A stretch of DNA of 49,711 nucleotides from a virus: positions 1-49,711 of IMG/VR virus record IMGVR_UViG_3300025383_000035. The stretch is one strand, 5' to 3'. Below, in pieces: positions 18,901-36,339 of this stretch (position 1 is its first letter; each line of letters begins with the position of its first letter). The notes below the pieces were generated by a model. The model made no database searches, was not told the origin of the DNA, and saw nothing but the letters and a program-made list of their open reading frames with translations. A program made the translations under genes and the position numbers.

Positions 18901-21900
18901 TAAAAATTGTTCCGTTTGCAACAGTTTGACTTGGAAAAACAGTCCAGCTATTTCCGCTACCGCCAATGATAACAGTTCCAGCTGTAACACCAGTACCAGT
19001 CAATGCCATACCAATGGCAATAATACCTGTAATAGCACTGCTAATTACAAGGTTACCACCACTAGTGCCCGAACTAATACCTCCTGTAAATGAAGCTGTG
19101 TTTACACTGGCTGCACTTGGGAATCCAAAAGTCAACTGGGCTGTTGGATTACTTGGAGTAGCTGTAATAATTGGAGTACCTTGAACTTGCAATATACCTA
19201 CGTCAACACTTCCGTCACTACCTGATTTAATAAAGCTGTTAGGTTGATGTTGATTTAATCCGCCAGTTCCAGTTGCAACAGCATTGGCTTGACTTACTTG
19301 AACAACATCATAACTATTTCCACCACCAGTATTAGTAACTCCACCAGGACTGGTTGTATTAGCGTTTGCTGTTACAGTCATCACACCAACTGATCCAGCA
19401 AACGATGAATTGCTAATAGCATTACCGTCAGCAACTAAATTAGCAGGAGTTATAGCCGATGGACTAGCTGCGGCACCAGTGTTATTGTATAAAATAGTAC
19501 CAGCTGGTATATATGTTATCTTGCCAAGCTGAATGCCAGTAGCATTGCTAGTTGCTGTTTTAAGATCTATCCAACCATTGTTAGCTGTAAATACCGCACT
19601 ATTAAAGCTGGCTAAACCGCTTGCTGCTTGAACAACTGATTGTAATCCACTTGGTGCATTTGCACTTGTAACAGCATTTTGCATCAACAATTTGCTTTGT
19701 TGAATAGCTGCTGTTGCTCCAACCATGCTATCAACAATACTTCCACTGTTGATACTAGTTGTAATAGTTCCGCTAGCACTATTGTAAGTCAATCCAGTTG
19801 TATTACCAATGATTGTACCTTGTGTAGTGATTGCACCTGTTGATGATGTGGCAATACTTACACTAGTAGTTGTTGGCGCAGGAGTTGCTAATACAGTCCA
19901 AATACCATTGTAACTCTGTGTTGACACACTATTATTAGTGGTACCGCTTATTACAATAGTTTGTCCAGCTTGGAACGGTTGTGTCGCTTGCGATGCAAAT
20001 GTAAATGTTGCCACACCGTTGTTTGTACTTACACCTGTAGTAGCAATTGGTCCGCTTGAAGGAACAGACAGTATAGCTGCCTTCCAAGTTGAACTTGGAG
20101 CATCGTATACCAGTTGACTACCTGTTACAATTGATGTAAACACCACAACACCAATTGGTGTAAAATTAGGAACTTGACTTAGTGTAATGTTGGCAATTAA
20201 TTCGCCACCAGATGTGGTTGTAAGAGTAACCGCGGTAATTTGTTGTGTTCCGTCAAATGCATAAGTTGTTACTTGGCCAATAGTCCGAGTACCACCACCG
20301 TAGATATACATGCCTATTGTTGGGGGATTATTGACAGTAGCAGTAATCTTTGGTGTAAATGCCAAACTTACTCCACCAGTCCAGTCACCAATTCTAGCTG
20401 TACCAGTGCTGTATGGCAATGTACTATCTTGTAATTTGAATATGCTATTTTGATTTGTATCTTGTGTGTCAACATAGCCTTTGTTTGTGGCATTAGTCGG
20501 GCTGACGTTTACAGGCATGTTCATGTTGATAATACCATTACCACCCAAGTTCATTTGGCCAGTCATGGCCAAAGCACCGTTCAAGGCCATATAGCCTGGG
20601 CCGATTAAATTATAATTAGGTACTGGATCTCCACCGTAGGCTAGACCTAAACGATAATCAATAAATGAACGAATAGCACTTTGCACTGGAACAATATCAC
20701 TAGCGTTCTCAGTCATCTTGCTATCACTAGAAAAGTCAGTTACTAGAACACCACGTTGAAATTGTAAACCACTTACGTTAGTAAATGCAACGTTCTGACT
20801 GATACTAACTGTACCTGTACCTTGGTCAACTGTAAAGAACTTACCAACACGGAAAATACCGTTTTCGTCAGTTGTTACATAGAAACAGCGACCTACGCCT
20901 TCTTCAAGAATTTGTTTAGTATTGTCTGCGGCAATAGCTGGGTTACCGTAAATTTGGTTTGGATAGTTACTTGTATTGTATCCGCCAGTACCAATAAATG
21001 CAAAGTCATGTCCAGTAGCACGAGTTAAACTAATACGTTGTGTAATTTGTGCGCCTGTGTTAGCACTATATCCTGCAAACAATGTTGTTGAAAGCGATGT
21101 ACTAAGTCCTTTACTAATACCAATAGCACTACCACTTGCATAGGCCTGCAATATTCCTACAGTAGTAGTTAGTGAACTATCCCATGCACCTGGATCGTAT
21201 GGATATGTTAGAATAATTAAGTTAGTTGAATTAGATCCTGAACTTGCACAAGCCCATATACCGTTGTATAAGTTGTTGTTATTACCGCTAACATTATAGT
21301 ATTTGCCATTAGTAACAGTAATATTACCAGATAGGTTTAATGTAACATTGAATTGACCATTTGACAACGCTTTAGTACCATAACTGCTTACAGTTGTAGT
21401 TGGTTGGTCAATAAAGTTTGGACAATAGAATTGCATACTACCTGAGCTGGTAGTAGTTGTACTAGGTACAACTACCGGGCTTAGTGTAGAACTTTGACTA
21501 ATTGTAATTGTGTAAGGACTAGTTGTACTTAAAATACTTGCTACATAGTAAGTTGTACCTGCTACAATATTACCAAACGCTGTACCTGTAAATATAATTT
21601 GTTGACCTACAGTTATACCATTAACAGAACTAACAGTTACAGCATTATTTAAAATTGCTGTTTGTGTCATAGTTCCAAATACGCCAGGACCATTAGCGTA
21701 CAATGCTGTTAGTTGAACAGTACTTGTCCCGCCAGTAGTTGTTACACTTGGATTAGCAAATTGACTTATTTGTGCTGTCAATACCGCGTTACCTGGTACA
21801 CTGAATCCTAATGAATTGTTTGTAAAGACTATTGAGTTTCCTAAGATAGGACTTGTAGTTGATCCGTAGATAAACACACTGATTTGTGTTGCGCCAATTA

Positions 21901-24900
21901 CTTGATTAATAGTATAAGTTTGTGTAGAACTTAAACCACCAACAGTACCAATGATTCCTGTGATGGTACTAACAGCCTGACTAACGCTTACTAGGTAAGT
22001 ACCAGCATTGTTTGGTGTATAAAAAGAATATGATCCTGTAGCGTTTGTTGTAAAGTTAGCTGCATTACCATTTATGTTTACTAAAGTAACAGTTGTTCCT
22101 GATGTATAATTTGACTTTACATAAGTTCCAACTGGTACACCTGTACCAACAACTAATAATCCTGCAGCTATACCTGTTGCACTTGTTACAACAAATGTGT
22201 TAGTGCCACTAGTTCCACCGCTTGCTACAGTTGTGGTAGCTTGTAAGTTTCCGCTTACTCCACTAATTTGATTAACAATAGTAGTACCAGTAGCAATACT
22301 TGTGCCGCTAGACAAAGTCATATTGTTATAAACAGTACCAGTTGTACCAGTTATAGTAGCTACACCAAATCCACTGTAAGACCCTGTACCTGCAGCAATA
22401 CTGCCGTTTAATGTAATTGAATAAACGGTATTGGCAAATGAACCAGCAATACCGTTGAATATGATACTAGCACCTGATGATAGACCAGCTGTGCTGTTTA
22501 TAGTAATTAAATTAGTTCCAGAAATAGTTTGAGTTACACTACCTGTTAAACTGCTTAAGGCAATTGTTGGAGCACTAGTATATCCATAACCTTGACTAAC
22601 AATAGTTACAGTATTATTAATGCTTCCAGTGGTAGGATCAATACTAACAGTGGCAATAGCTTGGCTACTTGCACCACCACCACTAAATGTCAATACTGGT
22701 GCTGTTGTATAGCCACTGCCTTTATTAGTTACAATAACTTTAGTTACATACGCATATTCGATACAACTTACAGTTGCACCGTTTGGAATCCAACAAGCTG
22801 GACTTACTACAAAAGAATTAGTTAATGTATTAACACTTTGTACAATAGTTCCAGATGGTACATTACCACCGCCTGTAGTAAATGACATTGACGATAATGA
22901 AAGTGTACCGCTAGTAACATTTGATGATTGAGTTACACTTAGACTATAAGTTCCAAGTCCACCAGTACCACTAGTACCGTTAGTACCAAATGCTTGTATA
23001 TAAGTTCCAGCGGTTACGCCACCTAAACTTGAGAATATAAGCATACCAGCAACAATTCCGCTACCTACAGTAACAGTTAAAACGTTACCACTGATGCTAC
23101 CAGTTATGCTTACATAACCGCCTGAAGCAGTTCCAGAAATTAACGGAGTTAATGTTGGGTTTACACTAACTTTAATAATATTACTAGATACATAAGTGAC
23201 AAAATATGTACTTTGATATGTAGTTATACCGTTTGTAGTTACAGCAGTACTGGTAGAAATTCCGCCAAATGTAGTTGCACTACTTGTATTGAACGTAATC
23301 TGTTGTCCAACATACAATGGAGCCTGATTAGACCCATCACTATTTGTTGGAATAGTTAAAGTAATACTGTTGCTGCTTACACTTAATACATAGCCTGTAG
23401 TTTGAACTAGCGAAACAACCATACCTACTACTAGTTTTGACACATCGTTAGTTGTAATGTTTGTTGTGTTTACAACGTTAGTGACTTGTACTTTAGCATC
23501 ATAACTTAGGTTAGTGGCGGTAATACTAGCAGGGCTACCGCTACTCGCTACGGTCTGACTTTGACTTACAGTCCAAGTACTACCAGCACCTGTTCCAGAA
23601 ATATTTGAAACAATAGTTGTACCAGATAAAATTGTACCACCGCTTGTTGCTGTTAAAATCATTCCAGCAAACAATGTTTGTTCGTTACCTGTGTTTGCTA
23701 CACTACTAACAGTTAATGTTGTTCCTGAAATATAGCCAGTGATCTTTGTAGTTACACTATAACCAGCAACGTTGATAGTGCTATCAACAGGAGGTAATGT
23801 ACCAGCACTACTATATGGAATTTTAAATGTTACTAGTTCGGATTGTGTGCTACCTGGCTCTAAGCTGCTTCCCAAGTATTCTAAGCCATTTAAACCGATA
23901 CCAATACTGGCGTTGTTATAAATCGGAGTCAATGCTAGTTGTAAATAACCATTAATATTAAATCCAAATTGTATACTAGCGCCCGCCACAATACCAGACA
24001 CTGTTGCACTAATAGTCAAAATTGCTTGTAGTGTACTTCCGCCAGGTACAACACCAATACTTTGTACGGCTGTAACATATTGTCCAGTCCAGCCTGTTCC
24101 TGTAATCAATTGACCAGGTAAAATATTTCCAGTAACGTTGTTTACTGTTAGTGTTAGTGTGCCAGAGTCAAATGCAGAATAAGTAGACGATGCAGAGTAT
24201 AAAGGTGGTTGATAACTTAATACTTGATGTGTTCTACCGTTCCATGCTAGGCTATAATTACCAGTATTAATCTGATTGATTGTACTTTGATCTGTCAGCA
24301 CTCCAACAGCAATATTATTATCACCAGGATTAGCACCTTGTGTTACGGTACCAAATGATAATTTTCCAGTTGCGATAGTAATTGCGCCACTCAAAACTAC
24401 AGTGCCGCCGCTAACATAAGTTACAGTCAAACCTGCTGGATATATGTAACCAGTTGCTTGTCCATTGGTTATATCTAATGCTGAACTAATTGTATTGCCA
24501 ACTACTTGTCCAATGCTAATTGTGCCAGTAATACCAGTTAATGATAATGTATTACTTGCAAACGAACTTACACTTGCTGTGGCAATTGAATAAGTCGGAT
24601 CAGCTGAAACAATATTAGTAGTATCTGGAACAAATGTATAATAAGCAAAACCGTTTGCTGTTTGTAAAATAGCATTGGTCGGTGTGCTCATCGCTTCACC
24701 AGTTGCTTGGTTCAAGTTATAACTTAGTACACGATAGATACTTGATAAGTTAGCTGAGTATTGTAACGCCGTACTTGGACGTACTGGTTTAACGTTAGTA
24801 ATGTTAGTAAATTCAACGTATGTATTTGTACGTAAAGTAACCAACTGACCGTCACGTAATGCAAAAGCCAGACCAGTTGATGATGTGATTGTAAGTTGTA

Positions 24901-27900
24901 GTACGTTTTGTCCAATAGTAACGCTGGTATGACTAATACCGTTTACTTGATATGTAACAATACCGCCACCTTCAACTGAGTGATCGATATCAATATAAGA
25001 TTGGGCATATGGAATATATTCATAACCGATGATATAAATCTTAGTGTAGATAGTTGTACCAGGTGTGCCCATTTCAGAAGCATATTGACCCTGTTTGTAG
25101 ACACGTGCCGTTTGAATTAAATCGTGTACCAGGTTAACAGCATTAGGTAATTCAGTGCTGTCTGCACCGCTAGCACGTAGACCGTAGTCACCATAACCGT
25201 TTGAACCAGCTACAGAACGAATCTGTCCACCATTCAATGAATAATAACCTACATGGTTATAGTATGTGAATGTTGAAACTTGTTCAGTTAAACCGGCGTT
25301 GGTAGCAACAATACCATAACCCAAGTCACAAACTTGTGTAAAGTCGTTAGCCAACATTGACTTGTTACCGCCCATTTCAATATTGATTGGTACATTACCG
25401 GAAATCAAATAGTTTGGAATAGTTGTGTTTAGTATAGTTGATCTATTGCTAGTTATAGACGAGAAGTCTGCATTATACGAACTGGTACTAGAACTAATTG
25501 TTGGCTTAGTGATAGTTTGTGTACTAGCCCATGTATCTCTAGTTGCCTTACTAGCTGTCCAATAAGTGCTTAACCAGTTTACTAGTGTCTCGATATTTGT
25601 AACAGGGAAACTTGAGCCGTTTGGATATGATGCACCTATTTTTAATGTTGTATTTTGAATAACACCATTACCTGCACTTGGATATGTTGTTGTAGATCCA
25701 TTGATGGTTATAGTTCCAGTAGTAATACCTTGGATAACATTTTCCATTACAGATTCTAAATATTCAAATGCTGTATAGTAAACATTTAAAACAGTATTAC
25801 GACTGATGTCTGGGTTTTGAACAGTTTTCCCAGTTAAACTATTGTAGTAATATACTCCATCAGTCCACCAGAAGTATTGAGTAGCCAGTTGATTAATCTG
25901 ACTATTTCCGCCATACAATGTATCATAAATTACAGCATCGACAATATAACCGAGATCTTGTTGTGTTGTTAATGGACTGTAACCTGTTGTTGTTTGTAAA
26001 CTAAATTGAGGTAATGCTGATAGCCACGCTGCCACTTCTTGTTGTATAAATGTACGATTAGCTTTTAATAATGCAACAGCATTTTGTTGATCGGTAGTAG
26101 CACTACTTAATGGTGCTGGATAATTTATATTAGATGGTTTTGGTAATGCTGTAATACCATTATTAATAATACCATAGATCAATGCTAGGTTATTAGTTAC
26201 GGCTGTTTTATAATTGCTACCAATAGCACTAGGGCTAGTAATGGCTGCAATACGATTGTTAATGTAGTTAATACCAATGTTTAATAAAACTTGTGTAAGA
26301 CCATTAACAATATTTTCTGGTTGGATATAAACTAAACCAGTTCTAATAGTTTGAGAAGTTGTTCCTAACGCTGCATCGTAAGTAACAGCATCAAAAATAT
26401 TGTTGAAGTAACTGCTAATTTGACTGTAGCTAGTTGCTGTGGCAAAAGGTGTACTGGTGTCAAGAATCAATCTTGTTTGTGGTGCACCAATGGTGTAAGT
26501 TCCGCTAGCTTGTGCGGTTAAACCAGTCCAAGCAACACCGTTTACAAAGTTTGTATTACTTAGAGTAATTGTGTTTCCTGAGATACTGGAGATAAAGACT
26601 GCTGGGCTAGCATTTGTAGGAATACCAGTACCGCTGATGTACATACCTGCCGTGATGCCAATGGTACTAGTAACCGTCATTGTAAATGTACCAACAGCAC
26701 CATCGGAGTTTGCATTTGTATAAGTTACCGTACCGATAGTGGCATTACCGTTGTAATCATAAACTTCGTCGATTTGATAACGATAACCTTGTAAATAGAA
26801 CGAGCAAGGTACTTGTGGAGGACGAACATCTAAACCACTGTTTACTGTTCCTTGAACTGTAATCAGTGTATTTGCAGATCCGTTAGAACCAATCACAGTT
26901 TCTGGACTTGATACAGTTTGAATGCTGCTAATTTGATATGTTCCAGTACCACCAGTTGTTCCGCTTATTTGACTTTGGATATATGGATTATTAACAATAC
27001 CGCTACCGCTGATAGTCATGCCTAGGACAAAAACTCCTTTAATAGTTCCGCCTACGGTTAATGTATTGCCAGAAATAGTACATTGAGTAGCACTAGCATT
27101 TGGAGGATATGCGTCGATATTAACTACGGTACCATACAGACGTCCTGTCATACCGTCGATTAACTGACCACCGGCAAAGTTTTTCTTATTTGTACTACCT
27201 GTAAAACAACCTGATTCTTGTCCGTACGGTGATTTGGATTTAATCTGACCTTCTGGGTCAAGTACCATCATAAATCCGCCATGGCCCTGAGCACTGATGT
27301 TACTGATACGTGTAGCATCGTTACATAGGAATACATCAATTTGTTTGTTGTTCTTTGGTACACTATTAATATCTAGCGGGTTAGTCAAATAGTGACGTCC
27401 GTAGTTGCTTGTTGTGTATAAATGCCACACTCCATAAGCAAATGGACCGATATTACTGAATGGATAAACTACAGTACAGTTCATCACGTTACCGCTAACG
27501 CTGTCGATAACAGCCTTACCTGTGGCAATTTGTCCGTAGGATGTAGCGGTACCAACAGCTTGGTTATTAATAAATGTAACAGTACCCACGCCAGTAGCTG
27601 TGACAGTTGTACTATTTTGTGTTTGACTGTTGTTTACGATCCATGTATTAGATGTTGGACCTGCAGCAACAATTATAGTTCCTGCACTAATGCTTCCGCC
27701 TGATAAAGTTTGTCCTATAGCAAATGCACCAATGACAGTTCCTGATCCAACACTGAATGTGGTTCCAGAGATACTACCAGTTGTAGTGCTAGCACCGACT
27801 GTACAAGTGGCTACAGTAAATGTACCATTGTAATTGGTTGGACTCATTCCTTCTATAACAATATTGTCTCCAGTTTTATATGGAACTGAATTAGAAGAAA

Positions 27901-30900
27901 GAGCAGTACCAGTACTTGAAACAAAGTTTATGCTACAGTATTGATTTAAGTTTAAATTGAATACTGTACCTTGTGTTATCTTATATGTGTCTTGAGTTAA
28001 TACAAGACCAATCCAACTAGCAGGAACTTGTCCTGTGGCCAGTGTAGCTGTTATAGTACCTGTAGATGCACTTAATGTAATTGCCGAATTGTATCCTACA
28101 CCAAAGTCTGTGCTGTAGTCAATCGGACCAATTTGCATGCCATCAAAAATACCATCTCGATAGAAGAATAAACTTACCCAAGGACTCTTACTAGGTCTGT
28201 CAATAGGTCTAATAATTGTACGACGGAAGTCATCGCCTTTGACTGTTACATTTTGTGCTAATCTGATTGGATAGTCTTCATAGTAAATACCTGCCTCTAC
28301 ACGAATAGTAACTTGTTGTATTCCTACACTTTCAGCGTAATCTAATGTTTCTCCTGGAACAAAGAAACCAGGTGTTAACATATTAACATTTAGTGTATCA
28401 TAAATTGTACTACCACCTGGGCTGTAACTTAAAATAACAGCAGTGGCTTTTGAAGTATTACCAATTAAAATCTTACCAGGTATGATATGGTTATCTGCTG
28501 CTTGGCCTTGGTCAACGCTACCAACACCGCCGTTGTATACTCTAATGCCGTAGTATCCTGATCCTTGTACAGCAGTAGGAGCCGCACTTAAACCTTTTTC
28601 AATAATTTGCAATATGGTTGTAAATGAACCATTTACTTGTGCCACAGCACCAGCAAAATCTGAATTTGCTGTAGTTGCTTTAGTACCGTCAATTGAGAAT
28701 GTAGCACCGTGATAAGCATTTTGTGTAACTAAACTTTGGAATCTTAATTCTTGAGTTTGATTTAATACTTGTGCAGCTAGGCTTTGGATGAATGAAATTG
28801 CTTGTGTAGTTGGAGCCAATTGATCACCGGTGATAGCTTTTAAAGCACTAGCATTTCTATAATAACTCTTACCTGCTTGTACAGTTTGATAATTGGCCGG
28901 AACACTGCTAGTACCAGTTAATATATCAATTACAACAGCATCTATCATTAAACCGATGTCTCGTAAACAAGTGGCTTCGTTATAAGTCAATCCACCGGTA
29001 TATGTAGTTTCTAGATAGTTGTAAACATAACTAGTAATTGATGAATTTGCGCCTGTGATAATATTCCAAGCACCTAACGGACCTTTGGTAGTATCGCTGT
29101 TAATCAACAATAAAGATTGACTACTACTTGTTCCTTGAGAATTGCCCAATGCACTAGTAGGATATGTAATTACATAGTTGTTGGCCAGTGTGCTAACTGT
29201 AGTAGATGTTGAATTAGTATAGTTTGCTAAAACATCTAAGATAAGACTGAATGACCCTCTGATTTGATTTTCAGCGTTGTAAGCCAATCCCCATGCTACT
29301 GGTTGTGGAGTAGTTTGAATAATTGTGTTGCCACTTTGAACAGCAACATATTGATTCTTTAAAATTTGAACAACTTCTTCGCGTAGCTCACTGATAGCTG
29401 TATAGCATGAACCAGATGGGCTAGTATTTCTTCCCGCCGCCAACTGTAATGTACCGTTAGCATAATATTGCAAAGCAGCCTGAACCGTAGCACTATTACC
29501 GCCGTATAACAAATCATAGCATACGGCTTCTAAGATAGCAGAGATATCTCTTGCACTGGCTGTTTGATCAAATACAATACCAGAGTTAGTGTTTACAATA
29601 AATGAATTAATGTTTGCTTGTAAAAAGCTAACGTTTGCAAAGATTGCTGCTTTTGCTTGATTAGCAAAATCAGAACCGCTGTTTGTATAGTAAGGAAGAC
29701 CACGAGGTTGTACACTATTATTAACACCGTATCTTAATAAGTTTTGTATTACATTGAATTTTGCACTAATGGTGTTTACTGTAGGACCATCGTTTACAGT
29801 ACCTAATAATGAATTACTAATCAGTCCGTTAATAGCTTTAATATAACCAACACTTGTTAATATGATTGTAGGAATTGGACCGTTGGTAGTTGGGTTATGA
29901 ATGACAAGATTAAATTTGTCATAGGTAATTACACCTGCAGATCCTGGAATAGTAGGAGCGGTACCGTATAAACCAGTTGTTGAATTTTCAGCAACAACTC
30001 CAGATCCGCTTAGTATGCTGGCAATTAACGCAATATTACCACTAATGCTGCTACTAGCCACGCTACCACCAGCATAAGTTTCGTTTGTATATTGGAATAC
30101 TGTTGTTTGATACAACACATTAGGTGTTGAATTTGTAATGATATTTTGTGCCAATACACCAATATAGTCAATAGCATCAATACATGCACTTTGTTGAGCG
30201 TTGCTAGCCAAGTGTGGAGATTGTACACCTCCATACCAATATCTATTGGCAGCGTATGTGCTTTGGCTGTTACCGCCATACATTAAGTCATAGACTAAAC
30301 TCCAAACAATAGCTTGAATATCTCGTCTGCTTAGTGACTTATCATATCCAACATTAGAATATTTGCTGGTTAAGAATCCACTGATCTCAGCTTGGATAAA
30401 TGGAATATTATTAACTAGTAAGTTGGCTGCACTAAAACTTCCTGATAGGCTTGAACTTGTTGCTGGGAAACTAGGTGTAGGTGTTTGACCAGTTAGAATA
30501 ATTTTAACAATAGTTTCTGCTAGGCTTTGTAAACTTGTTGTAATACTTGCAACTCCAACACTGGCAATTAAATTGTTAATCAAGTTATTTCTAACAATAG
30601 AACCACCGGTTCCTGCTACCTGTGTAGTACAAGCAAACGTTATGTAAGTAGTGTCGCAAGATAATACAGTCCAGTAGCCTAGTAGACTTGAGCTACTATT
30701 ATATCCGCTAGTAGATACACCTGTAATTAAAATTTGTTCGTTAACCTGGAATGGAACAGTTAATTGTTCATCGAATGTGATAGTTGCGGTAGTTCCATTA
30801 CCGATAGCATTGGTAATTGTAATGCTAGATGTATCCAATAAGCTAACAATTTCGTTAGCACTAAAATCTGGAACAGCATTTGGATTTACACTATTGTTAG

Positions 30901-32389
30901 CATAAGGGAACAATAGACCGGCTTGTATACTTTGGTAATTTGAACCAATAGCAAAGTCGTAACTTAAAGCAAATAAAATTCTGTGTAGATAATTTTGTAG
31001 TGCTGTGCCAGAGTTTGAATCGTAACTATATTCTAAAATCTGTTTTTGAATTTGAGCTACAGCATCTCTTACTTGAGATAATTCATTTGTAATTATATCA
31101 GCATTGTAACTATTGAATAGTATGCTTGCTTGGGTCATAGAATTGAATGTTGTATTCAATGCCAAGTCGTATGCAACACCATTGATGATATTGCTAATAA
31201 TTGATTCCCAACGTGTTTGATCAAATGTACTCTTGTTTACATACTTTTTATTAATGTAACTGATAGTTTCTTGTTGGATGAAAGAACGGTTATATTCCAA
31301 CAGACTAGCAGCATCTAGTACACCTTGGACAGCACTACTACCGGCAATCAAACCCACTAAGTGGCTTTGTGTTGCAGGAGCATTATAAACATACCCGTTG
31401 AATTGGTTAGCACCAATGGTATAAGATAATGTTTGACGATATGGACCAGGCTCTTGATTAGATAAAGATATTAAATTTTCAGCTTGTAGTGCAGCTTTGC
31501 CTACAGTAGCATAAGCATATTGCCATGCACGGCCTTCACGTCCTGCTGGAGTATGAGTTTGTAAGTCATCGCCTTTGGTTGTAACATATAAGTTTACACC
31601 GCTGTAGTAAGTGCTATTATCAACATAGTATTTTGTTGCAGCTTGTAAATCTTCCGGATCGTTTACTATTCCTTCTCCTGCTAGTGGAGATGGATGATCG
31701 CTTAGATTCAAAGCACCAGTCATTGTGTCACCGCCGCGGTATACTACATCTTTACGTTGCATTGCTTCAGTGCTTAGGTAGTTACCAGTTAATGTTGGAT
31801 CGTAGCCTGTTACACCTACTTGTGGGGTTAATGGCTGTGTACGTACATTTAATGCACTGGTAATTTGTCCTTTGCTAACTTTTAAATAGTTAGCATCAGC
31901 ATATCCTTTAGTTACTGCTAGACTTGCAAGAGTTGTAGTAATGTTGTTAGTTTTATTGTAATTATTGTTGTTAAACGCCTGTACCAGTGCTTCACTAGGA
32001 TCTGCTAAATTTACAACAGAATATGCACCTTGAGCATTTAAATTTCCACCCAATGTTGGATTCTGATCTGTACTAAGACTAGATGTTGGTGGATGAATTA
32101 TAAGTTTGGTATTATCACTAGTTGCGTCAATACTGAATTGTATAGCAGGTGCACCAACAACAATATCTCTTGCTGTAAGACCTCCGCCCGTAGTAGCTGC
32201 CATGATAATTTGATTGGCTTTGTAGCTAGCTGGAGCATCAGCTAAGTTAGTAAAACGAATAGTTCCACCGCCACCAAAAATAGCGTATAATTCGCTAAAG
32301 TTATCGTTTACTTTTTGGAACGACGTACGAATACTGTCGCCTGTACCGTCATTACCTTGTACGCCAATGTCAATTTTCTTTTGTGCCAT
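15944..32389 (-). CDS. Giant tail-fibre/adhesin protein, 5,481 aa, with C-terminal S74 chaperone
   Basis: One uninterrupted frame of 16.4 kb, a third of the window. Order of parts: residues 1-40, docking-like motif (KIDIGVQGNDGTGDSIRTSF, then QKVNDNFSELYAIFG); about 330-1200, four helical units of the RDI...YDLLYGGNSQ type, with a fifth near 2100; about 1350-1430, a beta-helix-like segment (VTIRVEAGIYYEDYPIRLAQ, NVTVKGDDF); about 1450-3800, long Ser/Thr/Gly/Ile-rich arrays of roughly 60-residue units (G-x-T-L-T-V...G-x-x-I-x-G-M-x-I-x-G-x-G); about 3830-3915, a unique conserved block (CFYVTTDENGIFRVGKFFTV); then fibre shaft; about 5360-5481, an S74 domain (ITAYYSDDRLKTRIGGIENA) with Ser-Asp near 5381. 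Likely a trimeric distal fibre or adhesin; receptor unknown. It starts 5 nt after the Fe-S carrier gene and shares its late promoter. Confidence 0.9.
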   Translation of the reverse strand: MAQKKIDIGVQGNDGTGDSIRTSFQKVNDNFSELYAIFGGGGTIRFTNLADAPASYKANQIIMAATTGGGLTARDIVVGAPAIQFSIDATSDNTKLIIHPPTSSLSTDQNPTLGGNLNAQGAYSVVNLADPSEALVQAFNNNNYNKTNNITTTLASLAVTKGYADANYLKVSKGQITSALNVRTQPLTPQVGVTGYDPTLTGNYLSTEAMQRKDVVYRGGDTMTGALNLSDHPSPLAGEGIVNDPEDLQAATKYYVDNSTYYSGVNLYVTTKGDDLQTHTPAGREGRAWQYAYATVGKAALQAENLISLSNQEPGPYRQTLSYTIGANQFNGYVYNAPATQSHLVGLIAGSSAVQGVLDAASLLEYNRSFIQQETISYINKKYVNKSTFDQTRWESIISNIINGVAYDLALNTTFNSMTQASILFNSYNADIITNELSQVRDAVAQIQKQILEYSYDSNSGTALQNYLHRILFALSYDFAIGSNYQSIQAGLLFPYANNSVNPNAVPDFSANEIVSLLDTSSITITNAIGNGTTATITFDEQLTVPFQVNEQILITGVSTSGYNSSSSLLGYWTVLSCDTTYITFACTTQVAGTGGSIVRNNLINNLIASVGVASITTSLQSLAETIVKIILTGQTPTPSFPATSSSLSGSFSAANLLVNNIPFIQAEISGFLTSKYSNVGYDKSLSRRDIQAIVWSLVYDLMYGGNSQSTYAANRYWYGGVQSPHLASNAQQSACIDAIDYIGVLAQNIITNSTPNVLYQTTVFQYTNETYAGGSVASSSISGNIALIASILSGSGVVAENSTTGLYGTAPTIPGSAGVITYDKFNLVIHNPTTNGPIPTIILTSVGYIKAINGLISNSLLGTVNDGPTVNTISAKFNVIQNLLRYGVNNSVQPRGLPYYTNSGSDFANQAKAAIFANVSFLQANINSFIVNTNSGIVFDQTASARDISAILEAVCYDLLYGGNSATVQAALQYYANGTLQLAAGRNTSPSGSCYTAISELREEVVQILKNQYVAVQSGNTIIQTTPQPVAWGLAYNAENQIRGSFSLILDVLANYTNSTSTTVSTLANNYVITYPTSALGNSQGTSSSQSLLLINSDTTKGPLGAWNIITGANSSITSYVYNYLETTYTGGLTYNEATCLRDIGLMIDAVVIDILTGTSSVPANYQTVQAGKSYYRNASALKAITGDQLAPTTQAISFIQSLAAQVLNQTQELRFQSLVTQNAYHGATFSIDGTKATTANSDFAGAVAQVNGSFTTILQIIEKGLSAAPTAVQGSGYYGIRVYNGGVGSVDQGQAADNHIIPGKILIGNTSKATAVILSYSPGGSTIYDTLNVNMLTPGFFVPGETLDYAESVGIQQVTIRVEAGIYYEDYPIRLAQNVTVKGDDFRRTIIRPIDRPSKSPWVSLFFYRDGIFDGMQIGPIDYSTDFGVGYNSAITLSASTGTITATLATGQVPASWIGLVLTQDTYKITQGTVFNLNLNQYCSINFVSSTGTALSSNSVPYKTGDNIVIEGMSPTNYNGTFTVATCTVGASTTTGSISGTTFSVGSGTVIGAFAIGQTLSGGSISAGTIIVAAGPTSNTWIVNNSQTQNSTTVTATGVGTVTFINNQAVGTATSYGQIATGKAVIDSVSGNVMNCTVVYPFSNIGPFAYGVWHLYTTSNYGRHYLTNPLDINSVPKNNKQIDVFLCNDATRISNISAQGHGGFMMVLDPEGQIKSKSPYGQESGCFTGSTNKKNFAGGQLIDGMTGRLYGTVVNIDAYPPNASATQCTISGNTLTVGGTIKGVFVLGMTISGSGIVNNPYIQSQISGTTGGTGTYQISSIQTVSSPETVIGSNGSANTLITVQGTVNSGLDVRPPQVPCSFYLQGYRYQIDEVYDYNGNATIGTVTYTNANSDGAVGTFTMTVTSTIGITAGMYISGTGIPTNASPAVFISSISGNTITLSNTNFVNGVAWTGLTAQASGTYTIGAPQTRLILDTSTPFATATSYSQISSYFNNIFDAVTYDAALGTTSQTIRTGLVYIQPENIVNGLTQVLLNIGINYINNRIAAITSPSAIGSNYKTAVTNNLALIYGIINNGITALPKPSNINYPAPLSSATTDQQNAVALLKANRTFIQQEVAAWLSALPQFSLQTTTGYSPLTTQQDLGYIVDAVIYDTLYGGNSQINQLATQYFWWTDGVYYYNSLTGKTVQNPDISRNTVLNVYYTAFEYLESVMENVIQGITTGTITINGSTTTYPSAGNGVIQNTTLKIGASYPNGSSFPVTNIETLVNWLSTYWTASKATRDTWASTQTITKPTISSSTSSYNADFSSITSNRSTILNTTIPNYLISGNVPINIEMGGNKSMLANDFTQVCDLGYGIVATNAGLTEQVSTFTYYNHVGYYSLNGGQIRSVAGSNGYGDYGLRASGADSTELPNAVNLVHDLIQTARVYKQGQYASEMGTPGTTIYTKIYIIGYEYIPYAQSYIDIDHSVEGGGIVTYQVNGISHTSVTIGQNVLQLTITSSTGLAFALRDGQLVTLRTNTYVEFTNITNVKPVRPSTALQYSANLSSIYRVLSYNLNQATGEAMSTPTNAILQTANGFAYYTFVPDTTNIVSADPTYSIATASVSSFASNTLSLTGITGTISIGQVVGNTISSALDITNGQATGYIYPAGLTVTYVSGGTVVLSGAITIATGKLSFGTVTQGANPGDNNIAVGVLTDQSTINQINTGNYSLAWNGRTHQVLSYQPPLYSASSTYSAFDSGTLTLTVNNVTGNILPGQLITGTGWTGQYVTAVQSIGVVPGGSTLQAILTISATVSGIVAGASIQFGFNINGYLQLALTPIYNNASIGIGLNGLEYLGSSLEPGSTQSELVTFKIPYSSAGTLPPVDSTINVAGYSVTTKITGYISGTTLTVSSVANTGNEQTLFAGMILTATSGGTILSGTTIVSNISGTGAGSTWTVSQSQTVASSGSPASITATNLSYDAKVQVTNVVNTTNITTNDVSKLVVGMVVSLVQTTGYVLSVSSNSITLTIPTNSDGSNQAPLYVGQQITFNTSSATTFGGISTSTAVTTNGITTYQSTYFVTYVSSNIIKVSVNPTLTPLISGTASGGYVSITGSISGNVLTVTVGSGIVAGMLIFSSLGGVTAGTYIQAFGTNGTSGTGGLGTYSLSVTQSSNVTSGTLSLSSMSFTTGGGNVPSGTIVQSVNTLTNSFVVSPACWIPNGATVSCIEYAYVTKVIVTNKGSGYTTAPVLTFSGGGASSQAIATVSIDPTTGSINNTVTIVSQGYGYTSAPTIALSSLTGSVTQTISGTNLITINSTAGLSSGASIIFNGIAGSFANTVYSITLNGSIAAGTGSYSGFGVATITGTTGTVYNNMTLSSGTSIATGTTIVNQISGVSGNLQATTTVASGGTSGTNTFVVTSATGIAAGLLVVGTGVPVGTYVKSNYTSGTTVTLVNINGNAANFTTNATGSYSFYTPNNAGTYLVSVSQAVSTITGIIGTVGGLSSTQTYTINQVIGATQISVFIYGSTTSPILGNSIVFTNNSLGFSVPGNAVLTAQISQFANPSVTTTGGTSTVQLTALYANGPGVFGTMTQTAILNNAVTVSSVNGITVGQQIIFTGTAFGNIVAGTTYYVASILSTTSPYTITISQSSTLSPVVVPSTTTTSSGSMQFYCPNFIDQPTTTVSSYGTKALSNGQFNVTLNLSGNITVTNGKYYNVSGNNNNLYNGIWACASSGSNSTNLIILTYPYDPGAWDSSLTTTVGILQAYASGSAIGISKGLSTSLSTTLFAGYSANTGAQITQRISLTRATGHDFAFIGTGGYNTSNYPNQIYGNPAIAADNTKQILEEGVGRCFYVTTDENGIFRVGKFFTVDQGTGTVSISQNVAFTNVSGLQFQRGVLVTDFSSDSKMTENASDIVPVQSAIRSFIDYRLGLAYGGDPVPNYNLIGPGYMALNGALAMTGQMNLGGNGIINMNMPVNVSPTNATNKGYVDTQDTNQNSIFKLQDSTLPYSTGTARIGDWTGGVSLAFTPKITATVNNPPTIGMYIYGGGTRTIGQVTTYAFDGTQQITAVTLTTTSGGELIANITLSQVPNFTPIGVVVFTSIVTGSQLVYDAPSSTWKAAILSVPSSGPIATTGVSTNNGVATFTFASQATQPFQAGQTIVISGTTNNSVSTQSYNGIWTVLATPAPTTTSVSIATSSTGAITTQGTIIGNTTGLTYNSASGTITTSINSGSIVDSMVGATAAIQQSKLLMQNAVTSANAPSGLQSVVQAASGLASFNSAVFTANNGWIDLKTATSNATGIQLGKITYIPAGTILYNNTGAAASPSAITPANLVADGNAISNSSFAGSVGVMTVTANANTTSPGGVTNTGGGNSYDVVQVSQANAVATGTGGLNQHQPNSFIKSGSDGSVDVGILQVQGTPIITATPSNPTAQLTFGFPSAASVNTASFTGGISSGTSGGNLVISSAITGIIAIGMALTGTGVTAGTVIIGGSGNSWTVFPSQTVANGTIFTATLSPSGVPGFMVVGLNASNAVVTTFLGQTFAPIHQASTFEGIGGQTISASYNGGWTISGSTQLSSNSSFTVGNSSGGSATTLYGTLNTYNSITLNGGAGKLFTITNGSGTPVTQFSVDSNTGNTSVTGSFFVNTNKFSVDSTTGNTTIAGNLVVQGTTITVNSETVNNNETITGTLAVSSTTDAADTGSGAMTVAGGVGIAKKLYVGSNLSVTGTGTLSVNSGSTSLGGTLSVTGDTSITSTNSTALTVTGGATFNSNVTLAGSTTAATEYFKVTAGPAGATTFAIDSAQGNTTIGTSGTLTLAAIAANGAGTPATGTITGAWSTSTNSSLNLATNNSTLFVKTINATNSGTSGSITGLWTFNNATTFSDSVTLIGSTTANAKFFKITDGTTQHFYIDSSTGSITSTGNITLTGTSNTITLSGTNARVVSNVTGSVYAVDGTTLLLDATNKALTNTTLSAGLITSGTLSADRGGTGASGAQAGIKALLNGLPTTPATGYFLASNGSDSYFWASPTSISQTNVGTRITTTRKTWKVGINGVTAGQTSFTDVPSYATGQGNLRVYLNGVRQDDGNNDYSEVSSTSFTLGVGLQSGDVLFAEIDANYSYVVNANNVVFSSINGVSNTDVQGAIATLQGNKMPYTGGQFTGDVSTAGAVNITLGAGTASKAPLKFTDGTLISSPISGTIEYNSGYLYYTDNANTPVRQTVASQSWVNTTLSTFSSGGSLDAGTLKTGTIPSTTLGNSTVYVGTTGIALNRTSANLGLTGITSIAMPGSTSGTITLQPTASAGTTTITFPATTGTVAMSGDTFYIGSTQIANNRGNGSIALTGITSIDGKAGTASTADTANALNTSNAYRVNALGVNVDPSSFTTGEIRASNNITAYYSDDRLKTRIGGIENALDKLCSLEGFYYEANETAQALGYEVKKEVGLSAQSVQKVLPEIVAPAPIDDKYLTIRYERIAPLVVEAIKELRKEISDIKKHLGL
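25900..31340 (-). repeat. Five diverged helical repeats inside the giant fibre protein
   Basis: Protein-level repeat within the 5,481-aa gene. Each copy has (N)xxFIQxEI...Y, then an RDI- or DLGYI-type segment, then AVxYDLLYGGNS followed by YY. Approximate residues: 355-410 (EYNRSFIQQETISYINKKYV), 660-710 (RRDIQAIVWSLVYDLMYGGN), 920-970 (ARDISAILEAVCYDLLYGGN), 1125-1165 (LRDIGLMIDAVVIDILTG) and 2100-2165 (QDLGYIVDAVIYDTLYGGN). Copies are too diverged to be DNA repeats, so they are an old domain duplication and not a recent tandem array. Confidence 0.7.
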
Positions 32390-32787: not shown

Positions 32788-33075
32788 ATGTACTTAGGAA
32801 CAGAATTCGTGCAAACACAATATGTGCGTACCAGCAAACGTGGTAAGCACCATACCTACAGCCGTAATAAGACTGTGGTGCTGTTTCGATGCGATGCTTG
32901 TCAAGGGGTGTTCAAACGGGATAAGGGGAAGATGGATCCCAATCGCCTAAACAACAATTACTATCATGTGTGTGGTAATTGTGACGCTAAAAAGTTTGCC
33001 CAAGAAAAGGGCGTTGAAAGCCGTAGAGTTTGGGATATGCCAGTGAGTAGTCTTAAGACACTCGACCAATTCTAG
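32788..33075 (+). CDS. Small zinc-ribbon protein, 95 aa
   Basis: Two CxxC pairs are visible: CDAC (in LFRCDACQGVFKRDKGK) and CGNC (in YYHVCGNCDAKKF), about 27 residues apart, the layout of a zinc ribbon. The N-terminus is basic (RTSKRGKHHTYSRNK), consistent with nucleic-acid binding. The exact function is unknown. The start is uncertain. The ATG at 32788 has no ribosome site and lies 5 nt from a TAAATA box. A GTG at 32809 has AGGA upstream and would remove 7 residues. The gene converges on, and overlaps by 23 nt, the superoxide dismutase gene. Confidence 0.8.
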   Translation: MYLGTEFVQTQYVRTSKRGKHHTYSRNKTVVLFRCDACQGVFKRDKGKMDPNRLNNNYYHVCGNCDAKKFAQEKGVESRRVWDMPVSSLKTLDQF

Positions 33076-33613
33076 AACCAATGAGGTTCCAATTGATAAT
33101 ACGCCATTGATTGCGTAAGTAGCCTTTTTTATCGGCAAGGTAATCGAATTGAAATGCGTGTTCCCACCAGTCCACCAGCAATATGATATCCATACGAATC
33201 TCATGATTTTTGATAGTTTTGATTGAACCATCACGGGCTAAGTAAACCCAACCTGAACCTTGTATTTTCATTGCTTCTTTTTCAAAAGCATCTTTAAAAC
33301 GATCAAATGTTTGAAAGTGTTTGTTGATAAAGTTTTCAGCAATGTGTTCAGGATTGTTAGAACTCATGGGTTTCTGATACTGTCTGAACAATATATCGTG
33401 CAAAAACGCACCTGCTTCATTAAAGTCGGCATCGCCCTCGCCATTGTTAAATCTTGTAACATAGGCTTTATATAACTTACCATAATGGTAATCTATAGTA
33501 TCTTCGCTAATGCTGGGTTCCAAATCGTCCCTTGCATAGGGCAACGGAAATTGTTCTAAAGTTTTAGGCGTCTTACCCTCGTTTAGCGTGATATGCTTAA
33601 TAAAGTTGTACAT
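33053..33613 (-). CDS. Fe/Mn superoxide dismutase
   Basis: 186 aa. It aligns by eye along the whole Fe/Mn-SOD fold: LPYARDDLEPSISEDTIDYH at the N-terminus, then GAFLHDILF, GSGWVYLARDG, and DWWEHAFQFDYLADKKGYLR near the end. All four metal ligands are present: His43, His72, Asp148, His152. His137 (in KNHE) sits where the outer-sphere Gln/His of the family lies, as in SODs that use His there. In the first helix the usual KHH is KLY (Leu47, Tyr48), so a second-shell His is missing. It would convert superoxide to peroxide in the infected cell. There is no signal peptide. The start lacks a ribosome site and lies 5 nt from a TAAATA box. Confidence 0.9.
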   Translation of the reverse strand: MYNFIKHITLNEGKTPKTLEQFPLPYARDDLEPSISEDTIDYHYGKLYKAYVTRFNNGEGDADFNEAGAFLHDILFRQYQKPMSSNNPEHIAENFINKHFQTFDRFKDAFEKEAMKIQGSGWVYLARDGSIKTIKNHEIRMDIILLVDWWEHAFQFDYLADKKGYLRNQWRIINWNLIGSRIGRVS

Positions 33614-33652: not shown

Positions 33653-33889
33653 ATGAAAGAACTACTAAAAAAATGGTTTGCGTTAAAACCTAAAACTGTA
33701 GAAGCCCAAGCGCCTTACAAGGTAGAAACACCAGTAACACCAGTTGCTGACGATGTTACTCGTGCAATGTTGGAATCTATTCCAGCACCAGTGCCAGCTA
33801 AAGGACCTAAGGTTAAAAAAGCGCCAGCGGCTAAGAAAGCACCAGCTGTTAAAAAGCCACGTGCTCCTAAGAAGCCTAAAGCAGAGTAA
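33653..33889 (+). CDS. Small basic Lys/Ala/Pro-rich protein, 78 aa
   Basis: Residues 1-45 are mixed (MKELLKKWFALKPKTVEAQA). Residues 46-78 are a histone-H1-like tail (PAKGPKVKKAPAAKKAPAVK, then KPRAPKKPKAE) of repeated KKAP units. Such tails bind DNA or RNA non-specifically. Possible roles are DNA condensation, packaging or internal head protein (inference). An AGGAG site and a TAAATA box precede it, so late expression is likely. It converges on and overlaps the last 14 nt of the UV-endonuclease gene. Confidence 0.8.
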   Translation: MKELLKKWFALKPKTVEAQAPYKVETPVTPVADDVTRAMLESIPAPVPAKGPKVKKAPAAKKAPAVKKPRAPKKPKAE

Positions 33890-34901
33890 GTATTTTAGCT
33901 TGCTCGTAAAGAGCAAAGCTGGCAAGATTCTTGCCTTTACTCTCCGCCATGATATCGTGTGAGTTTAGAAAGCTCAGTGCCCATTCATTCGTAGCTGTAT
34001 TCCAGTAAAAGTCTGAATGTGCTCTGAGCTTTTGCTTTTTGTAACCCTCGGCCAATAACAGTTCGTAATCGGGCGGAACATCCGTGGAATGATTGATTAG
34101 ATAATCTTCTCGAGATATGCTATAGTGCATAGTAGGGCGAAGACCCCGCCAAGAGTCCACAACTCGCTTGACGCGGTCGTCTCCAGGTTGTATGTGCTCT
34201 CCCTCACGTATCCAATGATGATGTATATCAAGGACGATAGGAATAGTATCTGTAAGAGTGAGACAGTCATTTAACCCCCATGAGTTTTCTTCGTTTTCGA
34301 TTGTAATACAATTACGTGCCTCCGGACTTAATCTGTTGTAGGCATTTCTAATGCCTTGGGGACCTTGTTTGCCCGAGATGTGGACATTGATCTTGAAGTC
34401 TTGGAACTTTTGTCCGTAGCCCATGTATCTGGCCATGTCTGTGTGATACTCGAATTCTGCGATCGAACGTTCGACAATGCCTGGGTTATCACTTGCCAGA
34501 ACTGTAAACTGCCCAGGATGCATGCTAAGCCGAATATTGCTGTTGCGAGCAATATCGCCCACTCTCTTAAAATGGGTTTCTGCGTATGATATAATATCAG
34601 GTTGACGCCAATAATCAGCAAAGTCAGCGTGAGTATAAGCAGGGAGAATGTCACTGCTAATCCGAACCATCCTAAGAGGAGCATCAAGTTGGCTGACACG
34701 TTCAACCAATTTCCTTGTTGCTTCGATATTGCCTACCATTAGGTCCCATAGTTTCTGCTCCGCTACATCTCTCGATTGTCTGTTTAACCAAGAGATAGTA
34801 GTTGTGCCTGTGTTGTATTGTTTAGCATCGTCTTTTAGACCAATACCGTTAACCTGATGAGGATGGTCAATCCATTTACATGCGAAGCCTATTCGTTTCA
34901 T
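33876..34901 (-). CDS. uvsE: UV-damage endonuclease (UvsE/UvdE)
   Basis: 341 aa from the ATG at 34901; the family starts like this (MKRIGFACKWIDHPHQVNGI). TIM-barrel metalloenzyme that nicks DNA 5' of UV photoproducts. Metal-ligand segments are present in family order: LSMHPGQFTVLAS, INVHISGK, ITIENEENSWG, VLDIHHHWI, MHYSISRED and RAHSDFYWN. The ATG overlaps the stop of a small membrane-protein ORF (TAATG). Typical length. It gives the phage excision repair independent of the host UvrABC system. Confidence 0.93.
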   Translation of the reverse strand: MKRIGFACKWIDHPHQVNGIGLKDDAKQYNTGTTTISWLNRQSRDVAEQKLWDLMVGNIEATRKLVERVSQLDAPLRMVRISSDILPAYTHADFADYWRQPDIISYAETHFKRVGDIARNSNIRLSMHPGQFTVLASDNPGIVERSIAEFEYHTDMARYMGYGQKFQDFKINVHISGKQGPQGIRNAYNRLSPEARNCITIENEENSWGLNDCLTLTDTIPIVLDIHHHWIREGEHIQPGDDRVKRVVDSWRGLRPTMHYSISREDYLINHSTDVPPDYELLLAEGYKKQKLRAHSDFYWNTATNEWALSFLNSHDIMAESKGKNLASFALYEQAKILTLL

Positions 34902-35101
34902 TACCAATGCCTTATGACGCCTGCGATTATAAAAAAATTTGTGATAATGTATATTAACACAATTACAGTACGAATGCAAGCAATTCGGTCTGATTCTTCA
35001 TCCGTTTTGCCCGTTTTCTCTCCTAATGCTTTGGCCCAAAGGCGCCAAAAATAATTAGCCTTCGTACGTAGCCGAATTAGCACCGTGTTCAAATACTTCA
35101 A
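34901..35101 (-). CDS. Small membrane protein between queD and uvsE, up to 66 aa
   Basis: A charged helix (NYFWRLWAKALGEKTGKTDE) is followed by ESDRIACIRTVIVLIYIITN and a TM segment ending FFIIAGVIRHW. The reading frame ends in TAATG, coupling it to uvsE. The start is unclear: the frame opens with TTG at 35101, overlapping the end of queD by 47 nt. An internal GTG is possible, and no ATG is present. The polar helix plus C-terminal TM layout looks like a genuine phage protein and not noise. Function unknown. Confidence 0.55.
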   Translation of the reverse strand: MKYLNTVLIRLRTKANYFWRLWAKALGEKTGKTDEESDRIACIRTVIVLIYIITNFFIIAGVIRHW

Positions 35102-35600
35102 CTGATTTAACTCTTACTGTTGGGTTAATCGGATAACGTTGATTGCCGTTTACTAACAAGTCTGCCATTTTTTCATAGCACATTTTGGCAAACATTTCAC
35201 AGCCAACTCCGGGTACAATGCGTAGATCGCAAAGTGATCCTCTTTGGTACGGCTCAAAATTGTCTCTATTAACTTGCATTTCATTTGGACCTGCTTCAGG
35301 CAAAGTCCAATTAGTATCGATTAAAGCCATCTGTTTGAAAAATTCCAACTGTGGATCGTCTTCGGCAATAACCAAAGTGTGATCAAACATATAGTCTGCC
35401 CAGGCTTTAAATGCTTTGAGACCGCCAAAGTCCATACACCAGTTTTTGTCATCCAGTGTATCACATTCAAAGATTAGTTTGATACCGATTGAGTATCCGT
35501 GAAGTGTTGAACAGTGGCTATGTGTGGCACGCCATTGTCTAAAACAGCATGATAAGCCTCGGTCATTGCCGTATGTTTTTGTTGAGTAAAATTTTGCCAT
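35055..35600 (-). CDS. queD: 6-carboxytetrahydropterin synthase-like protein (QueD/PTPS family)
   Basis: 181 aa from the ATG at 35600, chosen for its AGGAG site; a longer frame to 35627 lacks one. Family features are the zinc-site His27 (RATHSHC), the Cys30 followed by LHG at 33-35, DFGGLKAF, FDHTLVIAEDD with Asp73-His74, and VEVFEHGANSATYE at the C-terminus. In typical QueD the motif is CxxxHGH; here it is CSTLHGY, so the third zinc His is Tyr36. An ~30-residue insert (LPEAGPNEMQVNRDNFEPYQ) is also present. QueD makes the precursor of preQ0, which phages can use for queuosine or 7-deazaguanine DNA modification. The other pathway genes are not in the window. Confidence 0.82.
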   Translation of the reverse strand: MAKFYSTKTYGNDRGLSCCFRQWRATHSHCSTLHGYSIGIKLIFECDTLDDKNWCMDFGGLKAFKAWADYMFDHTLVIAEDDPQLEFFKQMALIDTNWTLPEAGPNEMQVNRDNFEPYQRGSLCDLRIVPGVGCEMFAKMCYEKMADLLVNGNQRYPINPTVRVKSVEVFEHGANSATYEG

Positions 35601-35640
35601 TGTTATGTCTCCTGTTAACAATGACACGCAGAGTATTTTG

Positions 35641-35665
35641 AGTGGGATGAGCGTCTGAGTCCACT
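35641..35665 (-). ncRNA. 5'-leader hairpin of the queD transcript (copy A)
   Basis: AGTGG and CCACT form a stem around a 15-nt loop (plus strand GATGAGCGTCTGAGT). It lies about 7 nt after the predicted transcription start and 40 nt before the queD ATG. It matches a second copy at 36279-36305: 11 loop bases are identical and the stem pairs change in a compensatory way (T-A to C-G). See the finding on twin leader hairpins. Confidence 0.5.
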
Positions 35666-35678
35666 ATTTTAATTATGT

Positions 35679-35707
35679 ATTATACTATATTTAGAATTTA
35701 TTTCCAA
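35679..35707 (-). promoter_or_regulatory. Sigma70-type promoter for queD
   Basis: TTGGAA (35702-35707), 17-nt spacer, TATAAT (35679-35684) on the minus strand. The -35 box lies in the last codons of the GIY-YIG gene. The -10 is perfect and the -35 is a 4/6 match. Confidence 0.6.
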
Positions 35708-36249
35708 CCCCAGTGATAGCCATTTTCACTATTATTGAGTAATTTTCTTAATGTTGATAGATGCATTTTTAATACTTTTCCTGCTTCTTTGACATTAGTA
35801 AATTGTCCATACGGAGTTGTAATCTTCTTTGCTCTTGGATTGTTTCCGCCTGCTTTTTGTTCTTTGTATAACTGGATGGTTTCTTGGCTATGTTTTCTAC
35901 CATAAAAATTGTTTAATTCTTCAGTCTGTCCGTACAGAGGATTTTTCGATCCTATCATACCTTGCCAGCCTTTTGGGTTTCCATCTTTACCGTTTTCATA
36001 TTTTAAATTTGCCCAGTCGGCAGATTCTACTATATTATTTTCTTTGGAAAAATTTAAAGCAAAAATCTCACATTCTTCTATATTAGAAAATTCCCATACT
36101 TGGAGTGTGGCAATATTTTTGCCATATGTTTTTAAATGTCGCTTCCAGTATTTGCCAGAGCCACTATAGATATACGGATCTTTTCTTTCAGTTTTTCCAA
36201 AATATTTTAATCCAGTTATAGTATGTTGTTTTATGTAAAGATAAATCAT
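35698..36249 (-). CDS. GIY-YIG homing endonuclease with NUMOD-type DNA-binding motifs
   Basis: 183 aa. The N-terminal GIY-YIG nuclease domain is present in a variant form (IYLYIKQHTITGLKYFGKT), followed by SGSGKYWKRHLKTYGKN. The middle carries two NUMOD3-like units (GSKNPLYGQTEELNNFYGRK). The C-terminus (YGQFTNVKEAGKVLKMHLST) is a helix-turn-helix of the intron-nuclease type. It is free-standing, not in an intron. Both flanks carry copies of the same promoter and leader hairpin, so it looks inserted beside queD. AGGAG precedes the ATG. It also has a TAAATA box. Confidence 0.88.
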   Translation of the reverse strand: MIYLYIKQHTITGLKYFGKTERKDPYIYSGSGKYWKRHLKTYGKNIATLQVWEFSNIEECEIFALNFSKENNIVESADWANLKYENGKDGNPKGWQGMIGSKNPLYGQTEELNNFYGRKHSQETIQLYKEQKAGGNNPRAKKITTPYGQFTNVKEAGKVLKMHLSTLRKLLNNSENGYHWGWK

Positions 36250-36265
36250 TGTTGCTCCTTACATA

Positions 36266-36271
36266 TATTTA
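36266..36271 (-). promoter_or_regulatory. Late-promoter-like TAAATA box before the homing endonuclease
   Basis: The minus strand reads GCTAAATATATGTAAGG, 17 nt upstream of the ATG at 36249. It lies downstream of the sigma70-type promoter and leader hairpin, so the gene may be read in both early and late phases. Confidence 0.45.
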
Positions 36272-36278
36272 GCACACG

Positions 36279-36305
36279 ATGCGGGATGAGCGTCTAAGGC
36301 CGCAT
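36279..36305 (-). ncRNA. 5'-leader hairpin of the homing-endonuclease transcript (copy B)
   Basis: ATGCGG and CCGCAT form a 6-bp stem around a 15-nt loop (plus strand GATGAGCGTCTAAGG), starting at about the predicted +1. It pairs with copy A at 35641-35665: same loop length, the same first 11 loop bases, and covarying stem. Confidence 0.5.
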
Positions 36306-36311
36306 AATATA

Positions 36312-36339
36312 ATTATACGCTTTTATAGCGTAAGGTCAA
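36312..36339 (-). promoter_or_regulatory. Sigma70-type promoter for the homing endonuclease
   Basis: TTGACC (36334-36339), 16-nt spacer, TATAAT (36312-36317) on the minus strand. The spacer holds the inverted repeat ACGCT/AGCGT (36317-36321 with 36327-36331), which lies just after the stop of the adhesin gene. Confidence 0.7.

Follow-up and report, generated by a model that had tools for sequence, protein, structure and literature searches.

The DNA analysed here (the window), a virus record of 49.7 kb, carries genes of the clamp loader, DNA ligase, head maturation protease and tail-fibre families, and it is probably a fragment of the genome of a T4-like myovirus. At the locus under study, an endonuclease-like gene and then a queD-family gene are both transcribed from the minus strand (Table 1). 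Just downstream of queD lie the genes for a UvdE-type UV endonuclease (33876-34979) and a superoxide dismutase (33053-33613), and a UvdE-like frame is also found 3' of queD in records L005 and L152. Elsewhere in the window, one open frame of 5481 aa (15944-32389, minus strand), unusually large for a phage, adjoins the tail-fibre genes, and a 779-aa protein (7398-9737) is distantly similar to S8-type peptidases of the jumbo phages Atu_ph07 and Phosso.

Table 1. Coordinates of the genes, promoters and leader elements at the queD locus of the window.
Feature	Position	Strand	Basis or remark
queD-family gene	35055..35600	-	PTPS, PF01242, E 2.7e-15; 181 aa, start MAKFYSTKTYG
3' arm of alternative helix, TAACAATGGCA	35595..35605	-	Contains the queD start codon (35600-35598)
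Shine-Dalgarno AGGAG	35609..35613	-	Sequence; loop of alternative helix
5' arm of alternative helix, TGTCATTGTTA	35616..35626	-	Pairs with 35605-35595
P2 3' strand GTGTC	35623..35627	-	Covariation and alternative-helix analysis; common to alternative helix
L3, A-containing linker ending in conserved unpaired TCTGC	35628..35640	-	Three A columns and the TC and GC columns are invariant
P1 3' strand CCACT	35641..35645	-	Sequence and covariation
Invariant C directly 5' of P1 3' strand	35646	-	Every row of A1 and A2 (100%) has C
P2 5' strand GACGC, within the loop earlier described as conserved	35651..35655	-	Covaries with 35627-35623 in 74 plus 97 sequences
P1 5' strand AGTGG	35661..35665	-	Sequence and covariation
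queD promoter, sigma70-type, from the endonuclease cassette	35679..35707	-	Scored; layout repeated in L152/L153
Homing-endonuclease-like gene	35698..36249	-	NUMOD3 motif PF07460, E 2.5e-4; relatives found
Stub of the original queD leader, today the endonuclease leader	36279..36305	-	P1 hairpin and loop without P2 3' strand
Original queD promoter, today driving the endonuclease gene	36312..36339	-	TTGACC, 16 nt, TATAAT; scored

An earlier note on this DNA had described two promoter-proximal hairpins with a common loop, one before queD and one before the endonuclease gene, and both were recovered: on the plus strand they read AGTGG-GATGAGCGTCTGAGT-CCACT (35641-35665) and ATGCGG-GATGAGCGTCTAAGG-CCGCAT (36279-36305). 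The shared 11-mer GATGAGCGTCT, said to be missing from the other promoters, occurs exactly twice within the window, at these hairpins, and in the RNA transcribed from the minus strand the loop reads AGACGCTCATC. The hairpins do stand close behind TATAAT boxes, since only about 13 and 6 nt separate the starts of the hairpins from the ends of the -10 boxes (35679 and 36312). The queD promoter combines a -35 box TTGGAA (35707-35702), made from the final endonuclease codons, with a 17-nt spacer and the -10 box at 35684-35679; the -35 boxes match 10/12 for the queD hairpin and 11/12 for the endonuclease hairpin. The hairpins are thus real, but they are fragments of a larger RNA element. Downstream of its hairpin, the queD leader continues with a conserved second part, CTCTGC-GTGTCAT (35633-35621), that is missing from the endonuclease copy, and the covariance model scored 66.1 bits on the intact queD copy versus 28.5 bits on the endonuclease copy. 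The proposed twin element regulating two transcripts reduces to one complete copy, at queD, and a 5' stub at the endonuclease gene.

Relatives were collected from IMG/VR by two pattern scans, one with the loop and the inner stem pairs (a 17-base motif, 68 matches) and one with only the P1 3' strand and L3, which holds no P2 information (at least 120 matches). Nearly all matches of the first scan share a consensus of promoter, NNNGG-NCTNAGACGCTCATC-CCNNN, A-rich linker, CTCTGCGTGTCAT, Shine-Dalgarno and ATG, and each distinct copy with readable downstream sequence precedes a queD-family gene, directly or one gene away, so that the motif is no chance occurrence. QueD relatives found by protein search have diverged leaders in which the loop and a downstream strand change together (GGCAT/ATGCC, GGCAT/ATGTC, GGCG/CGCC, GGCA/TGCC and GGCAA/TTGCT). 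The two strands form a pseudoknot helix, P2, whose covarying pairs also include GACGC/GTGTC and GGTG/CACC. In an alignment of 74 distinct sequences made with MAFFT (A1), 88.6% of the P1 and P2 cells were paired (77.4 ± 0.8% in shuffles), and the covariation score was 0.340 against 0.145 ± 0.010 in shuffles that ignore kinship among the sequences (0/500 reached it; slid controls 0.035-0.091). For P2 alone, 93% of the cells were paired and two-sided changes were found at 5/7 pairs. To avoid circularity, 97 further sequences among the listed matches of the second scan were aligned to a P1-only model (A2), and covariation was 0.117 against 0.060 ± 0.005 (0/500) in shuffles that likewise ignore kinship. 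When loops were permuted against downstream strands, the observed pairing of 11.48 exceeded the permuted value of 10.06 ± 0.28 (maximum 10.95 in 2000). The compensatory changes between the two hairpins of the window, from which selection on an RNA stem had been proposed, say little by themselves; it is the relatives that supply the covariation, and with further copies across IMG/VR and stems that covary, the view of a regulatory 5' leader with a selected stem and fixed loop gains support.

What the hairpin had been taken for, the whole element, is nevertheless too small, because the fixed loop supplies a single strand of the pseudoknot helix, and the strand with which it pairs and covaries comes about 25 nt further downstream. 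Read in the direction of transcription (minus strand), the queD copy makes up a 43-nt H-type pseudoknot leader with a P1 stem of 5 bp, in which P2 pairs the loop bases GACGC (35655-35651) with GTGTC (35627-35623). Conserved unpaired bases are CT in L1, UCAUC and TCTGC; in A1, columns 39, 41 and 43 hold an invariant A and are followed by YTCTGC, and the base before the invariant C is mostly T, sometimes A or C. One genome-contig scan for a host-genome origin gave four matches, none with the leader layout, which look like chance, and extra covariance-model matches in G005 and G031 were coding-region matches. Named phages gave no significant match to the element, although they have QueD homologues.

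The association with queD is strict. Among the matches listed from the two DNA-only scans, all 159 distinct copies with readable sequence (159/159) have a queD-family gene downstream, which is the first gene within 150 nt in 154 and the next gene in 5; the two remaining distinct elements listed lie at contig ends. Several divergent PTPS/QueD clades carry the leader. There is one strong covariance-model copy per record, even in contigs of 270-518 kb, the exceptions being a second copy in L122 and the stub in the window. In element-bearing genomes no copy stands in front of folE, FolE is encoded in 20/47 and QueE in 13/18 of the element-bearing phages, queE follows queD in L122 and L249, QueC matches are weak, and TGT-family genes were not found among 18 large records. 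A promoter-like -10 lies just upstream in 86/178 of the copies listed and is absent nearby in the other 92/178, and several copies sit inside operons; the promoter-less and intra-operon copies are consistent with control at the RNA level. As to neighbouring genes, the second leader copy of L122 (1338-1395) precedes a radical-SAM gene upstream of queD, a partly decayed second copy in L196 (2-58) precedes a methyltransferase-like gene upstream of queD, and in L249 and L238 a methyltransferase-like gene and a cupin lie between the leader and queD. These radical-SAM, methyltransferase-like and cupin genes may be further parts of a modification pathway.

Together with the bases that follow it, the 3' strand of P2 is complementary to the region of the translation start. 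The resulting start-region helix, 11 bp including one G-U pair in the window and present in its minimum-free-energy fold, recurs with changing sequence (TGTCATTG/CAATGGCA, TGTCATCTT/AAGATGGCA, TGTCATC/GATGGCA, GTCATCTT/AAGATGAC, and CCTATG/CATAGG of the Shine-Dalgarno), and of 59 distinct leaders nearly all have a helix over the AUG or the Shine-Dalgarno. The pairing score of these 59 leaders was 17.16, against 14.26 ± 0.32 with 5' and 3' parts swapped between leaders (maximum 15.44 in 1000 permutations), and swapping raised the accessibility of the start. In folding of the 171 leaders among the matches listed, the probability of being unpaired for the less accessible of Shine-Dalgarno and AUG was 0.12; it rose to 0.34 when the five nucleotides of the P2 3' strand were blocked and was 0.10 when the neighbouring TCTGC was blocked as a control. 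Since the P2 3' strand is common to both folds, these should be mutually exclusive, and formation of the pseudoknot should free the start region. The P2 duplex is calculated at about -4 to -5 kcal/mol, and therefore the pseudoknot would be expected to prevail only with the help of a ligand or of co-transcriptional folding. The simplest reading of the folding is that the leader would be a translational ON switch, predicted to be ON once the pseudoknot forms. ON logic is unusual in a biosynthetic gene, which counts against this reading.

The second hairpin is explained by the history of the locus. The promoter type, P1 and 5' flank of the stub match those of queD leaders without insertion (L030 and L044), and right after CCGCA the stub diverges to other sequence, without the TCTGC-P2' part; uninserted queD leaders also follow the type of promoter now found before the endonuclease gene. 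Past the 3' end of the endonuclease gene, in turn, a fresh P1 (AGTGG), loop and L3 complete the old P2'. A 93%-identical endonuclease stands before a different queD clade in L152/L153, with the same promoter layout. Those records have GACAT in the stub loop, GGCAT in the rebuilt loop and ATGTC as local P2', and the window has GACGC in both loops and GTGTC as local P2'; the rebuilt half therefore matches the local partner at both places. As read from these junctions, the endonuclease cassette split the queD leader and kept its promoter and 5' half. The alternative offered earlier, duplication upon endonuclease insertion followed by drift, accounts for the presence of two copies, but its second part, drift without function, is contradicted by the covariation: two copies exist because the endonuclease inserted, and the queD copy is intact because of selection.

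To compare the element with known RNAs, Rfam was searched, and no family matched it at threshold; matches to freshwater-2 and Pistol were at chance level. PreQ1-I (RF00522) was the best of 4227 families for the elements of L049 and L050, with an alignment in register over P1, the loop and the A-rich L3. Its scores on the element (11-14 bits) fell short of the gathering threshold of 39, and the window copy and the other members tested gave no RF00522 match. Four of about 50 sub-threshold RF00522 matches in 28 records coincide exactly with the element, against a chance expectation that we put at about 0.03. PreQ1-I riboswitches are H-type pseudoknots with a P1 of 5-6 bp and an A-rich L3, and have a ligand-reading C (in UC or AC) directly 5' of the P1 3' strand (PMC11625349, PMC10622847). 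The phage element is like them in its predicted H-type pseudoknot with 5-bp P1 and covarying P1 and P2, in the C conserved before the P1 3' strand in all rows, in the invariant adenines of L3 and in its position before genes of the queuosine precursor pathway. It is unlike them in its longer, covarying P2 of 4-7 bp, in the additional invariant unpaired TCTGC and in its occurrence in phages; the longer P2 and the TCTGC suggest that the ligand may differ from preQ1. The predicted logic is also different. In a preQ1-I OFF switch the pseudoknot occludes the Shine-Dalgarno or favours a terminator, and every preQ1 riboswitch in the table of PMC11625349 is of the OFF type, whereas our computation points the opposite way, to a pseudoknot that would open the start region. 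Judged by its score, which stays below threshold, and its predicted logic, which differs, the element is preQ1-I-like and not a member of that family. PreQ1-II (RF01054) and preQ1-III (RF02680) gave no match to the element up to E=10; both adopt HLout folds, preQ1-II at about twice the size of preQ1-I and preQ1-III at about 100 nt (PMC11625349), and they are like the element in being pseudoknots that govern genes of the queuosine pathway or transport.

Taken with the gene association, these features make it probable that the queD leader is a compact H-type pseudoknot aptamer, acting as a translational riboswitch or riboswitch-like element for the 7-deazaguanine (preQ0) pathway and distantly similar to preQ1-I, and that the cassette left the second hairpin behind as a stub. 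With the loop GACGC paired to GTGTC in the pseudoknot, the ribosome-binding region would be accessible; in the alternative state, the GTGTC strand would belong to a hairpin that closes over the queD start codon (over the Shine-Dalgarno in other members). A metabolite of the pathway, e.g., preQ0 or preQ1, would most likely stabilise the pseudoknot and so turn translation on. The homing-endonuclease cassette entered the leader and captured the promoter and 5' half, while bringing a fresh promoter with P1 and loop by which the switch for queD was rebuilt. The sequences show the pseudoknot, the alternative helix, the strict tie to queD and the splitting by the endonuclease; ligand, ON direction and translational mechanism are inferred. 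A bolder version would make the leader a new class of riboswitch, specific to phages, that answers to a metabolite of the 7-deazaguanine pathway with inverted ON logic, and would make the endonuclease the carrier of a replacement aptamer half matching the local P2 partner; it is proposed tentatively, and we lean slightly against it as a whole.

The predicted ON logic would also suit the sensing of a substrate, so that the RNA switch of queD could respond to a pterin- or folate-type precursor (dihydroneopterin triphosphate, which is the QueD substrate, GTP or THF) in feed-forward activation, and not to a 7-deazaguanine. The conserved TCTGC and longer P2, absent from preQ1-I, fit such a sensor, as does queD being the constant target while folE of the same genomes has no copy; however, the only known family that the element resembles is preQ1-I, down to the position of the specificity C, and we regard a pterin or folate ligand as unlikely. 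Phages commonly use translational repressors. The pseudoknot could accordingly be the binding site of a protein, a phage repressor or QueD itself, that toggles the two folds, with the conserved unpaired bases as possible contacts. No co-inherited RNA-binding protein emerged from the analysis, general repressors have many target sites whereas the element is present as a single copy, and it accompanies several divergent QueD clades, which together make a protein site quite improbable. The two remaining readings were rejected on copy number per record and the queD association, and we give either of them almost no chance: plain duplication at the endonuclease insertion with drift and without RNA function fits the link of the second copy to that insertion, but not at least 159 distinct conserved copies, most of which lack an endonuclease and in which both helices show compensatory changes; and a T4-type PeSL cassette that shuffles modules fits a promoter followed by a stem-loop between genes of a T4-like phage, but not a single, gene-specific copy per genome, always at queD, with a pseudoknot and an AUG/Shine-Dalgarno helix, often (the same 92/178 of the copies listed) without a nearby promoter-like -10 and in several cases inside operons. 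PeSL promoter/stem-loop cassettes occur at high density in shuffled regions (Arbiol 2010 and Comeau 2014, as cited in PMC4503421), and no copies of the element were found before many unrelated genes.

No description of the queD leader element was found in the literature searched. Few phage riboswitches have been described so far: methylophage Melnitz and its relatives carry a glutamine riboswitch, and a putative psbA riboswitch is described for a cyanophage (PMC9004378). The queD leader would be like these in exerting riboswitch-type control of phage genes, and would differ in RNA, genes and ligand. If the preferred reading is true, it adds a widespread riboswitch for 7-deazaguanine synthesis, since a single DNA pattern already gives at least 120 matches in environmental phages; elsewhere, 7-deazaguanines shield phage DNA from restriction (PMC6884629). 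The compensatory P2 variants offer a natural series for testing.

The endonuclease cassette, for its part, is a selfish gene that rebuilds the regulatory RNA it interrupts. Other endonuclease-like genes lie between the leader and queD in L287 (~4870) and L297 (~4400, reverse strand), and one adjoins queD in L077 (~2360-2990). All three have GIY-YIG-like starts, the L287 protein gave no Pfam match, and the queD leader region looks like a recurrent homing site.
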